The notes under the pieces are model-generated. The model was not told where the DNA came from. It worked only from the letters and a program-made list of their open reading frames with translations, and searched no databases. A stretch of 64,000 nucleotides of DNA, taken from positions 1 to 64,000 of the forward strand of contig NZ_KB902313.1 in NCBI RefSeq assembly GCF_000379485.1. Direction: 5' to 3'. Each line of letters begins with the position of its first letter. The first letter of the stretch is position 1. Shown here piece after piece: positions 26,548 through 29,803 of the stretch. The DNA is from Wenxinia marina DSM 24838 (GTDB taxonomy: Bacteria > Pseudomonadota > Alphaproteobacteria > Rhodobacterales > Rhodobacteraceae). Both the position numbers and the translations under genes were made by a program.

Positions 26548-26721
26548 ATGACCCAACCGGACACCCTCCCCCCCGCCGCCCGCCGCGCCCTGCAGGAGGC
26601 CGAGGCCCGCCGCAAGGCGGCCGCGCCGCTGGACCTGCCGACCGAGCTCGGCGGCCGCGACGGGCCCGAGCCTGTGCGATTCGGCGACTGGGAGCGCAAG
26701 GGGATCGCCGTCGATTTCTGA
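26548..26721 (+). CDS. DUF1674 / SDHAF4-type succinate dehydrogenase assembly factor
   Basis: A 57-residue protein (MTQPDTLPPAARRALQEAEA at the start). The conserved end ELGGRDGPEPVRFGDWERKGIAVDF-type motif, here split as LPTELGGRDGPEP, RFGDWE and KGIAVDF, identifies DUF1674, the family of mitochondrial SDHAF4, which binds flavinylated SdhA before complex II assembly. Function in bacteria is inferred. It is divergent from rsmB across an 83-bp gap. No sdh genes are in the window. Confidence 0.85.
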   Translation: MTQPDTLPPAARRALQEAEARRKAAAPLDLPTELGGRDGPEPVRFGDWERKGIAVDF

Positions 26722-26752
26722 GCCGCGGCGCGGTCGTCCGGCCGCCCCGGCC

Positions 26753-27225
26753 CTACTGGTAGGGCACCGGCCGGGCGTCCGCCCGCAGGTACAGCGGGTG
26801 CCGCGGATGGCCGTCCTTCGTGAGGCCGAGGCAGAGCGGATCGCGCCCGGCCAGCATCGTTCGCACCTCGGCATCCCGCCCGGCGAGCGCGCCGTGGACG
26901 CCCCAGGCGCAGAGGACCGAGCCGGCCCCGCGCACCTCGCGCCGCAGGATGCGGTCGGTGCGCGGGCCGACCGGATCGGCGGCCTGCCGCAGCGCCTCCG
27001 GACGGGTGGCGCGGAAGGCGAAGAGGTTGCACACGACGAACCCCGGCCAGCCCCACAGACGCGTCCGCGCCTCGACCCGGGCGATGGTGGGGTCGTTCCG
27101 GTGCGCGTCCGCCGTGGCGGGGTTCAGCATGATCCACAGGAGCGGCGGGCCGTCGGCCAGCGGCGGGTCAGGCGGTAGCGGTAAAGGCCGCAGCGGGAGA
27201 CGTGGGCGGTGGAGTCGAAGGTCAC
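26753..27225 (-). pseudogene. DUF1643 gene with a one-base frameshift
   Basis: The N-terminal DUF1643 pattern, starting at a GTG (27225) as MTFDSTAHVSRCGLYRYRLTRRW, is in one frame. The rest (PPLLWIMLNPATADA, NDPTIARVEARTR, GFVVCNLFAFRAT, ending at TAG 26753) is in the next frame. Joining them needs one extra base at about 27155-27159, where TGGCC probably was TGGGCC. So this is either a recent single-base deletion or a sequencing error in a short G run. Families of DUF1643 are about this length with unknown function. The open frame through the region would give an odd Pro-rich N-terminus instead. Confidence 0.75.
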
Positions 27226-27477
27226 GGGGAGGGGGGGACGGCAAGCGGTCGTTCGCTGCGACGACGATCAACGCTGCGACGACGATGAACGTTGTGGAAG
27301 GGCGGGAAGCGCACCTTAGCTGCGAAGCCGAAATGCTTTGGGACAATCTGCGAAAGCGGACATCAGGGTGGAATGCGTGCTCTGAGCCCCGCATGCTGAG
27401 CAGTAGCCACGACGAGTGTCTGCCGCCACTCATTTCGACGCATCCGGGTCAGTCTTGGGACTAATGGAGGATTGACC

Positions 27478-27627
27478 ATGGCTTTCTTCTTTCGGTTGCA
27501 GTCGCCTGCATGGCTTCAGGAAGATCTGAGGGTGCGCCACCCCAAAAGGGTTCACAGCCTCCGACTGAAGCCAAGCCGCACCATGTCCATCTTGATGGCG
27601 CGTCACAAGTTCGTTACAATGTCCTGA
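27478..27627 (+). CDS. Small ORF (49 residues) coupled to a membrane protein
   Basis: The ATG at 27478 has a strong GGAGG ribosome site seven bases upstream. The ORF runs 49 codons and its TGA overlaps the ATG of the next gene as TGATG (27625-27629). The product begins MAFFFRLQSPAWLQEDL and is basic and arginine/lysine-rich; no family recognised. The downstream gene has no ribosome site of its own, so this ORF may be a leader through which the membrane protein is translated, whether or not the peptide itself has a role. Coupling is inferred from sequence. Confidence 0.5.
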   Translation: MAFFFRLQSPAWLQEDLRVRHPKRVHSLRLKPSRTMSILMARHKFVTMS

Positions 27628-28313
27628 TGAAGCCTGATGCCTTTTTCGTATCGTCTCGCAAACTTCTGCTTGCACTCACTTTGTCATGGCTTCTGCTCTG
27701 GTTCGGCAGCGTTATACAGGATCTGGTCATTCTCGCTACCGGCACCGAAGAGAAGATCTGGCTTCTTGATGTTGACAGCGAGGTTAGCGTTTACACCTGG
27801 CTCTCGACCATTCTGCTGAGCGGTGCTGCTCTCCTATCCTTTGTTCTAGCGTCCCATGGGAATGACGCGCCTCAATGGCGCGCTATCGGAGTTATATTCT
27901 TGGCCATGTCCATGGACGAGATGCTATCCCTGCACGAAAGGCTCTCCGGAGTTCTAAGTTCCTCGCTGACAACTTCAGGCCCATTCTTTTTCGCTTGGGT
28001 CATACCAGCAGCAGTTTTCATTCTCATGGTCGCCGTCGTCTTTTTGCCCTTCGTTTTTCGATTGCCGCGCAGTGTGGCGATCATGATCATAGCCGCAGGC
28101 TTCGTTTACATTTTGGGCGCTCTCGGCCTCGAAATGGCGGCTGGGCTATTCCTTTCCGGAGAAGAGAATTTGGCTTCAGCGCTCGAGTCGCCGCGCTACC
28201 GGATCATGACAAACCTGGAGGAGGGACTCGAAGTGCTCGGGGTAATCATTTTCATCGCGGCGCTTCTCATCCGGTGTGCGCAAGTCTTTCCTTCGACCTT
28301 CGAGACTGATTGA
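27627..28313 (+). CDS. Multi-pass membrane protein with SMDE...HE motif, unknown function
   Basis: A 228-residue inner-membrane protein with about six hydrophobic segments (near 14-35, 52-72, 84-100, 118-142, 148-172 and 198-216). Between segments 3 and 4 lies AMSMDEMLSLHERLS, a (S/M)-D-E-x5-H-E arrangement of acidic and histidine residues that could bind a metal at the membrane face; I have seen similar LSLDE..HE motifs in uncharacterised membrane proteins but can name no family. Start at MKPDAFFVSSRK fits the overlap with the small ORF; a longer in-frame reading begins at 27510. Codon use is less GC-rich than its neighbours, suggesting transfer. Confidence 0.7.
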   Translation: MKPDAFFVSSRKLLLALTLSWLLLWFGSVIQDLVILATGTEEKIWLLDVDSEVSVYTWLSTILLSGAALLSFVLASHGNDAPQWRAIGVIFLAMSMDEMLSLHERLSGVLSSSLTTSGPFFFAWVIPAAVFILMVAVVFLPFVFRLPRSVAIMIIAAGFVYILGALGLEMAAGLFLSGEENLASALESPRYRIMTNLEEGLEVLGVIIFIAALLIRCAQVFPSTFETD

Positions 28314-28532
28314 GTGACGCGGGCGTCGCGCAGAGACGTGCCGAAGTAGTGCGCGACCGGCACCGAAGGCGTTCGGCGCGAAGCCTTTGCGCCCGCGATG
28401 TCCGCAATGGGCCGATTGTGTTGAAAAACCCGGCCTCGTCACCGCGGGATGCGCAGGTTCCCCTTGAGCGCGTGCGCCCTCTGCTGGGGATCGCATTCAG
28501 TTCAACGCCGCTACTAATGCATAAAGCCCCCC
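28314..28532. other. Gene-free gap, possible insertion-element remnant
   Basis: No supported gene. The sequence around 28410-28440 (GGGCCGATTGTGTTGAAAAA, then a CCCGGCC-type stretch) resembles text often seen next to IS5-type insertions in alphaproteobacteria, but no terminal repeat pair or transposase frame is visible. ORFs here lack ribosome sites. Confidence 0.3.
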
Positions 28533-28904
28533 TCACCCCAACCCGAACGTCGCGCTGTCCCCCGTCCCATGGTCGCTGGTGAAGCGCACCCGGCCGGGCT
28601 CCACCTCGACGAGTTGGCAGTTGTAGGGGATGGCGGTGCCGCTCCAGTCCATCTGGCGGCAGAGGTAGCTGCCCTCCCAGCTCCACGAGCCGGTGACGGC
28701 CCAGCCCTGGGCCTGGCCGCTGATCGTGCCGTCGGCGTTCACCACGATCTCCACCCCGAGGAGGCGGTGGACGATGGGGCGGCCGACGACCGTCGAGAGG
28801 AAGGCGTCGCGGGTCGGCACCGGCTCGAACGCCAGCGCGGCGGCGGGGGCGAGGGTCAGGGCGAGGGCGAGGGCGAGGGTGCGGGGGGCGGCGGGCAGGG
28901 GCAT
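28533..28904 (-). CDS. Small secreted protein of unknown function
   Basis: A 123-residue protein with a signal peptide (about 1-25, ending ALA before FEPVP). The mature domain is small and beta-like: a D-F/AFLSTVVGRP start, NADGTISGQAQGWAVTG, W-x-W then LCRQMDW, and a second cysteine in NCQLVEV, likely a disulphide. Similar small periplasmic proteins are common in Rhodobacteraceae and are sometimes mislabelled dihydrodipicolinate reductase because they sit near dapB, as here (57 bp downstream of the true dapB's end, opposite order). Function unknown. Confidence 0.7.
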   Translation of the reverse strand: MPLPAAPRTLALALALTLAPAAALAFEPVPTRDAFLSTVVGRPIVHRLLGVEIVVNADGTISGQAQGWAVTGSWSWEGSYLCRQMDWSGTAIPYNCQLVEVEPGRVRFTSDHGTGDSATFGLG

Positions 28905-28960
28905 GGGCGTCTCCTTGGCGGGGCGTTCGCCCGGAGATACGCAGCCGCGCCCGGATCAGT

Positions 28961-29803
28961 TCACGCCCCCGTGCGCGGCGCCCCGACCGGCGCCCGCAGG
29001 CCGAGCACGTCGATCATGTCGAACTCGCCCGGCCCCTTGTCCTGCCCCCATAGGACGGCCCGCAGCGCGCCGCGGGCGAACAGCGCCCGGTCGGTGGCGA
29101 CGTGGCGCAGCACGATCCGCTCTCCCTGACCGGCGAAGATGACGTCGTGCTCGCCCACGATGTCGCCGCCGCGGATGGCGGAGAAGCCGATGGCGCCGGG
29201 GCGGCGGGGGCCGGTGTCGCCGTCGCGGCCGCGCTCGGAGCAGGTGTCGAGCGGAACGCCGCGGCCGTCGGCGGCGGCGTGGCCCAGCATCAGTGCGGTG
29301 CCGGAGGGGGCGTCGACCTTGTGGCGGTGGTGCGCCTCGACGATCTCGATGTCGAACTCCTCGCCCAGCGCGGCGGCGACCTGACGGGTCAGGGTGACGA
29401 GGAGGTTGACGCCGAGGCTCATGTTGCCGGCGCGGACGATGGTGGCGTGGCGCGCGGCGGCGGCGATGGCGCGCAGGTGCCCCTCGCCGAGGCCCGTGGT
29501 GCCGATGACGTGGACCGCACGGGCCTGGGCGGCGAGGCCGGCATACTCGGCCGTGGCGTCGGGGGCGGTGAAGTCGAGGACGCCCTGCGCGGTGGCGAAC
29601 GCCTCCACCGCGTCGTCGGTCACGGTGACGCCGAGGGGCGCGCCGCCCATCGCCTCGCCCACGTCGCGGCCGATCCAGTCGTGGCCGGGACGTTCGAGCA
29701 CCGCGGTGAGGCGGGCGGCCTGGCTGTCGGCGACGGCGCGGATCAGCATGCGGCCCATGCGGCCGGAGCCGCCGGTGACCACGATGCCGGGAATGTCGGT
29801 CAT
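28961..29803 (-). CDS. dapB: 4-hydroxy-tetrahydrodipicolinate reductase
   Basis: Second committed step of lysine/diaminopimelate synthesis, using NAD(P)H. The 280 residues show the Rossmann [10 protein letters not shown] (about 10-19), [13 protein letters not shown] and the catalytic [14 protein letters not shown]. Diaminopimelate feeds peptidoglycan, as does the dapA gene at 37.7 kb. The ATG has an AAAGGA ribosome site. It is divergent from rbfA across an 81-bp gap. Confidence 0.97.

Follow-up and report, generated by a model that had tools for sequence, protein, structure and literature searches.

The question raised by this locus is whether an AT-richer patch in the window (the whole stretch of 64,000 nucleotides that was analysed) is a recently acquired and undescribed unit, as a first-pass annotation had proposed, and whether that unit joins a membrane protein to the short open reading frame (ORF) that runs into its start codon.

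Insertion of an AT-richer segment between two host genes

The drop in G+C on which the proposal was built is real. The segment at 27224..28532 (approximately 1.31 kb, no strand assigned), lying between a DUF1643 gene and a 123-codon ORF, has a G+C content of 0.568 against a window mean of 0.720 (sd 0.032 in 1300-bp windows), with values of 0.532 for 27501-28000 and 0.592 for 28001-28500, and the lowest-G+C 1300-bp window (50-bp steps) starts at 27251 with 0.564. The GC3 of the membrane gene that it carries is 0.607, compared with 0.895-0.976 in six other window genes, the dapB row (0.538) having been left out with its stretch out of frame. Some window genes bear putative names (heparinase-like, RsmB-like, dapB, pth and glycosidase-like). 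Close to the left edge of the insert, an 18-bp unit is present as two head-to-tail copies at 27254-27289. The left part of the insert (27223-27640), searched as a conserved DNA leader, gave one 37-base plasmid match and did not recur elsewhere in the genome, and no Rfam family reached its gathering score in 26700-29000.

The empty-site comparison draws on one congener, G050 (locus L075), in which the same neighbours occur in the same order, namely DUF1674, DUF1643, a short ORF and then a gene that in both genomes we take to be dapB. In the window, the DUF1643 gene occupies 26753..27223 on the minus strand (Pfam PF07799, start inferred) and the 123-codon ORF 28533..28904, also on the minus strand. 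The congener's short ORF (2011-2415 of L075) shares 36% identity with the latter over 96 residues (E 1e-21), and the DUF1643 proteins share 59% identity over 131 residues, in an alignment that starts only at residue 35 of the congener's gene. The 123-codon ORF's counterpart in G050 ends at 2415, and the DUF1643 gene opens at 2429, leaving 13 bp between the two genes, as opposed to approximately 1310 bp in the window. Because these flanking host genes are nearly adjacent in the congener, the 1.31-kb patch is an insertion. No copy of the membrane gene was found in G050 by sequence or by profile.

Two further observations concern the DUF1643 gene itself. The window frame is broken near 27165 while the congener's copy is intact, which may represent a decayed gene or a sequencing error. 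Near-identical tandem repeats of approximately 210 bp, identified by eye, lie between DUF1643 and DUF1674 in the congener (approximately 2900-3560 of L075) and resemble the 3' end of DUF1643.

Approximately 80 bp past the membrane gene, the stretch at 28391..28434 (plus strand) is an IS1182-type terminal inverted repeat remnant. It resembles plasmid stretches that adjoin transposase genes in Agrobacterium, Methylocystis and Yoonia, the Yoonia one being annotated as IS1182, and in Agrobacterium the copy belongs to an inverted repeat flanking a DUF772/DDE transposase; the IS1182 label for the Agrobacterium element is our assumption, the label itself standing in the Yoonia record. In total, 57 plasmid records aligned with at least a portion of the 121-base query at E <=10, and a transposase was nearby in three of the five matching plasmid places that were opened, the others being an Azotobacter match, with no transposase within the stretch shown, and an R. 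gallicum record without annotation. Within the window, there was no transposase domain (Pfam) in nine further ORFs within the patch or at its edges, no recognised IS end at the left end of the insert, and no inverted copy of the right end better than one matching at 17 of 27 bases.

The proposed acquisition is thus supported by the empty site in one congener, the foreign composition, the IS1182-type end and the finding, described below, that two of the three closest relatives come from plasmid records, and the patch is a foreign single-gene insertion on this evidence. Mechanistically, a DNA segment with a single foreign gene would have entered between two host genes, probably by way of plasmids and insertion sequences. 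The locus clearly exemplifies one acquired gene lodged between a pair of host genes.

An unnamed family of membrane proteins

The one convincing gene in the insert (27627..28313, plus strand) encodes, on homology and structural models, a 228-residue membrane protein with six predicted long helices that belongs to an unnamed family. Searches of the window protein against Pfam, NCBIfam, PHROGs and PADLOC returned no family at E 1 in any of the four, and among 33 members no Pfam family was matched by more than two, the best match being that of one member to MerC (E 2.6e-5). No paper on the family motif was found among the matches listed in a search of published text, a type of search by which sequence families are hardly findable. 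The description of the protein as undescribed is accordingly upheld as far as the four family libraries reach.

Relatives are sparse and widely scattered. At the level of the taxonomic family, 5 of 198 genomes carried the gene when searched by single sequence and 15 of 394 when searched by profile, and the profile found it in 29 of 299 genomes at the phylum level, the window's own genome being counted in each case; the weakest profile matches (E of approximately 1e-4 to 1e-3) are questionable, above all those of L039 and L119. Relatives were present in 7 of 72,556 plasmid records. The window gene matches the family profile at 4.5e-80, the profile including the window gene itself. Its nearest relative is WP_217847003.1 on the Paracoccus marcusii plasmid pCP157_07 (L006), with 46-48% identity over its length (E 3e-36, residues 25-222), followed by a gene from a Rhodobacter plasmid record of 860 kb (L007, 39%) and by one from Mesorhizobium (L041, 36-38%), such that two of the three nearest relatives are on plasmid records. 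In the gene tree, the window gene groups with the P. marcusii gene (100/98), these are joined by L007 and L041 (99/91), and this group stands apart from L002-L005, which are genes of other genomes of the window's own taxonomic family. A longer subfamily (L114, L115 and L121; approximately 400-450 residues) has an extra hydrophobic C-terminal part.

A viral origin was considered and rejected, there being no confirmed relative in IMG/VR pattern scans for the window protein and its near kin or for distant members, none in 50,697 phage records and no PHROGs match, and a defence system was likewise rejected in the absence of a PADLOC match. A conserved partner gene was also sought among the neighbours of family members, which were called by a longest-ORF rule, some of the calls surely being wrong. 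Genes next to or near members include those for glycosyltransferases, sulfatases, hybrid histidine kinases, a thioesterase, UvrA and a RecQ-like helicase, and the domains among 62 neighbours (first 25 of 77 families listed) include histidine kinase four times, sulfatase three times, epimerase three times and COX1 once. These neighbours differ from member to member (62 scanned, twenty of them read singly) and do not outline a pathway; this absence of a fixed partner fits single-gene transfer. Two local arrangements were observed: in Mesorhizobium camelthorni (L041, 5790-9522) genes for cytochrome oxidase subunits II and I come after the family gene, and in the family-level genome group f28 (L024, L026, L030, L035, L036 and L037) the family gene lies near a gene whose putative product resembles the type IV pilus protein PilM.

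Conserved residues and predicted fold

The first-pass annotation had pointed to an SMDE-x5-HE motif at the membrane face, a spacing that has to be corrected: the family core motif is D97-E98-x4-H103-E104, with codons at 27915..27938 on the plus strand. In an alignment of the 33 members, the window protein included, E52, W84, D97, H103, W124, E199 and E202 are invariant, positions 98 (D or E) and 169 are acidic throughout, E104 is kept in 32 and E198 is altered once. When the alignment was extended to 43 rows with ten more distant members, D97, H103 and the acids at 98 and 169 were kept in all. Six of the distant members (L113, L116, L117, L118, L120 and L122) depart at one or more otherwise invariant residues: E52 in L118, W84 in L113 and L116, and W124 in L118, with a gap at the last position in L117, L120 and L122, while E199 is replaced by D in L118 and E202 by K in L117, L120 and L122. 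Positions 98 and 169 are both E in 22 of the 43 rows and both D in the other 21, with no mixed rows. Covariation of the two positions was considered and rejected as not significant, as the tree needs only two changes.

Structural prediction gave a weak model of the window protein (AlphaFold, two-row alignment; mean pLDDT 66.4, pTM 0.63), with helices at 9-38, 55-75, 81-110, 119-145, 148-178 and 189-220, and a model of the Mesorhizobium protein showed a like helix pattern at lower confidence (pLDDT 57.3, pTM 0.47), so that both the helix count and the clustering of residues are tentative readings of predicted structures. With placement read from the helix limits rather than from coordinates, the acidic and histidine residues occupy the loop that follows helix 1, the middle to late part of helix 3, the late part of helix 5 and the early part of helix 6, which brings them towards one face, and W84 is placed towards the opposite face. 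An excess of K/R is found on the N-terminal side in 30 of 33 members, and since there are more K/R on the side opposite the conserved residues, the conserved face would be outside. Six membrane spans with both ends inside are the most likely topology in these models, and the conserved acidic and histidine residues would probably lie near one, periplasmic, face. There were no Foldseek matches at E <=0.001, and a search of solved structures by sequence returned two weak matches only (E 0.85 and 2.8).

Under this topology, E52, D97, E98, H103, E104, E169, E198, E199 and E202 are predicted to gather near the periplasmic face. Such residues would most likely form a carboxylate-histidine site, perhaps for a divalent metal or for acid-base chemistry, and so make the protein an enzyme or sensor at the outer leaflet, a function for which the chance is put not far below even. 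A broader proposal, that the joint exchange of E98/E169 for D98/D169 marks two deep branches of a superfamily whose members would be membrane metalloenzymes or metal sensors with a periplasmic carboxylate-histidine centre, moving as single-gene cargo in Proteobacteria and Deinococcus, is offered at a probability well below even. The family is sizeable, unnamed in the libraries searched and unusually rigid in its acidic and histidine set, and thus offers a target on which the idea of a new membrane enzyme or sensor can be tested; it is this family, and not the short ORF, that is the most interesting lead of the locus.

The short ORF and the start of the membrane gene

The arrangement upstream of the membrane gene was borne out as first described. 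A GGAGG ribosome site at 27466..27470 (plus strand) precedes the ATG at 27478 of a 49-codon ORF (27478..27627, plus strand), the TGA of which (27625-27627) overlaps the ATG of the membrane gene (27627-27629) as TGATG, and the 228-codon frame that begins there ends at 28313. The anti-SD duplex energy is -9.3 kcal/mol for the 49-codon ORF and -0.1 kcal/mol for the membrane start, confirming that the latter has no ribosome site of its own. The short ORF has no homologues above noise and a weak coding signal. In 72,556 plasmid records its best match was at E 8; in genomes of the taxonomic family, 21 of 295 reached E 0.1 (own genome included), and the best match outside its own genome (E 0.0048, 38% over residues 2-45, with an internal stop) is at the chance level for 295 searched genomes. 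Of the six frames, that of the ORF ranks first in codon score, at 0.05 per codon, as compared with 0.03 for the 95% point of shuffled sequence, 0.03 for the best frame of the upstream stretch and a median of 0.17 for true coding segments.

Homologues were then compared at guessed starts, with a ribosome-site cut-off of -3.45 kcal/mol, as used in PMC3616915. Of the 38 homologues counted, 19 of which come from one related-genome group (f28), a site at or below the cut-off was present in 25 and lacking in 13, L004 being counted among those without since the position taken for it lacks a start codon; 17 of the 38 had a site at -5 or below. Outside f28, the corresponding counts were 11 and 7 of 19. 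An ORF of 20-80 codons ends near the start in 8 of the 38; the two of these that were read, one of 49 codons in L013 and one in L041 that encodes a hydrophobic peptide of 39 residues and stops 1 nt short of the ATG, are unlike the window's 49-codon ORF by eye. The nearest relative, L006, has a site of -3.0 kcal/mol and no short ORF at that place.

The idea that the short ORF is a translation switch or leader therefore finds no support as a conserved feature, there being no homologue of the ORF above noise and homologues of the membrane gene often having a site of their own. Relatives with their own site and without the short ORF had been named in advance as what would remove the coupling idea, and this pattern was indeed frequent (25 of 38 with a site), but it was observed in distant relatives, none closer than approximately 48%. 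Whichever route of expression applies, the short ORF looks like a local arrangement rather than part of a conserved unit, on a sequence comparison in which all relatives are distant.

Translation of the membrane protein would start at ATG 27627, with which the starts of L006 and L007 align. As this ATG has no ribosome site, expression would require either that ribosomes reinitiate after the 49-codon ORF or that a site inside that ORF gives rise to a leaderless mRNA, the former being thought possible at somewhat less than even chance and the latter a credible minority alternative. In the former case, which is plausible mechanically, ribosomes would start at the GGAGG-preceded ATG 27478, read 49 codons to the TGA and restart at ATG 27627, with the leader setting or switching synthesis. 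The contrast between -9.3 and -0.1 kcal/mol argues for this, as does the rank of the ORF's codon score, and when sequence with the composition of the patch was simulated, an ORF of at least 20 codons from upstream overlapped a fixed start in 10% of cases, falling to 0.4% when a ribosome site of -9 kcal/mol or below was also asked for, a figure that is post hoc. Against it stand the lack of ORF homologues in the genomes and plasmid records searched, the many homologues with their own site, L006 among those without a short ORF, a codon signal that is under the true-coding median and little above the control stretch, the lack of a 9/12 promoter-like site upstream of the ORF in the patch, and the fact that the reading was made from the sequence after the fact. 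For a leaderless mRNA, by which a sigma-70-type promoter inside the short ORF would dispense with a ribosome site and leave the ORF irrelevant, the evidence is a promoter-like site, TTGATG-17-TACAAT (27592..27620, plus strand), identified by consensus match only, which ends 6 nt before the ATG, places the predicted transcription start at the A of ATG 27627 and is the sole one of that quality in 27200-28560 (0.4 expected); a site so placed was seen in 0.05% of simulated cases, also post hoc and not on one scale with the 0.4% for coupling. Such mRNAs are documented in alphaproteobacteria: PMC3616915 gives 171 leaderless starts against 4,430 mRNA starts in S. meliloti and names Rhodobacter sphaeroides beside it, PMC7566282 gives 119 of 2,675 pairs in Zymomonas mobilis, and they also appear in PMC4287350. 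The low S. meliloti proportion nevertheless counts against a leaderless start here, as do the ribosome sites of homologues such as L005, L007 and L009, and a 9/12 consensus match found after the fact is not evidence of function.

Two other explanations were considered. The membrane protein could start at the in-frame ATG at 27510, giving 267 residues and making the 49-codon ORF accidental, as the frame is open to 27465 and the first helix is preceded by tens of extra residues in some relatives; however, the extension (27510..27626, plus strand) is probably not coding, with a codon score of -0.13 per codon, under that of the 49-codon frame, and a third-position G+C of 0.44, the ribosome site at 27510 is weak (-2.4), and the position corresponding to 27627 is where L006 and L007 start, making this the least probable of the readings. 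Ordinary decay, in which the patch would be an eroding remnant and its gene unexpressed, is consistent with the single IS end left and the broken frame of the adjacent DUF1643 gene, but is improbable given that the membrane frame runs unbroken through its 228 codons and retains all the residues invariant among 33 members. The best overall explanation, which we hold to be somewhat better than an even bet, is an acquired single-gene segment encoding a six-span membrane protein with a predicted carboxylate-histidine site, starting at ATG 27627 and preceded by a short ORF that is a local arrangement. The locus provides a small test case for the expression, in a GC-rich host, of a foreign gene that lacks a ribosome site.

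Comparison with known systems

Microbial rhodopsins have a retinal-binding lysine in the last helix. The window model gave fold matches to them in helical-bundle outline (best Z 8.7, rmsd 4.9, 183 aligned residues, a Z within the range given by common helical bundles), but the window protein has no lysine in its last helix, residues 189-220. Translationally coupled leader ORFs are a known class, which the window resembles in the strong site of the short ORF, the stop-start overlap and the lack of a site on the gene itself, and from which it differs in that the arrangement is not conserved among relatives, all of which are at 48% identity or less. Similarly, the right end of the insert resembles the ends that adjoin transposase genes in IS1182-family elements elsewhere, whereas the patch has one end only, with no Pfam transposase domain in the nine other ORFs in and around it. 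The closest single counterpart is the P. marcusii gene, which has all of the conserved residues and lies with IS genes (IS66 and IS3) on one side, followed by glycosyltransferase genes, and which differs in having no overlapping short ORF. The broadest likeness is to the unnamed DE/DD-x4-HE and EE-x2-E membrane family as a whole, with which the window gene shares both homology and the invariant residues.
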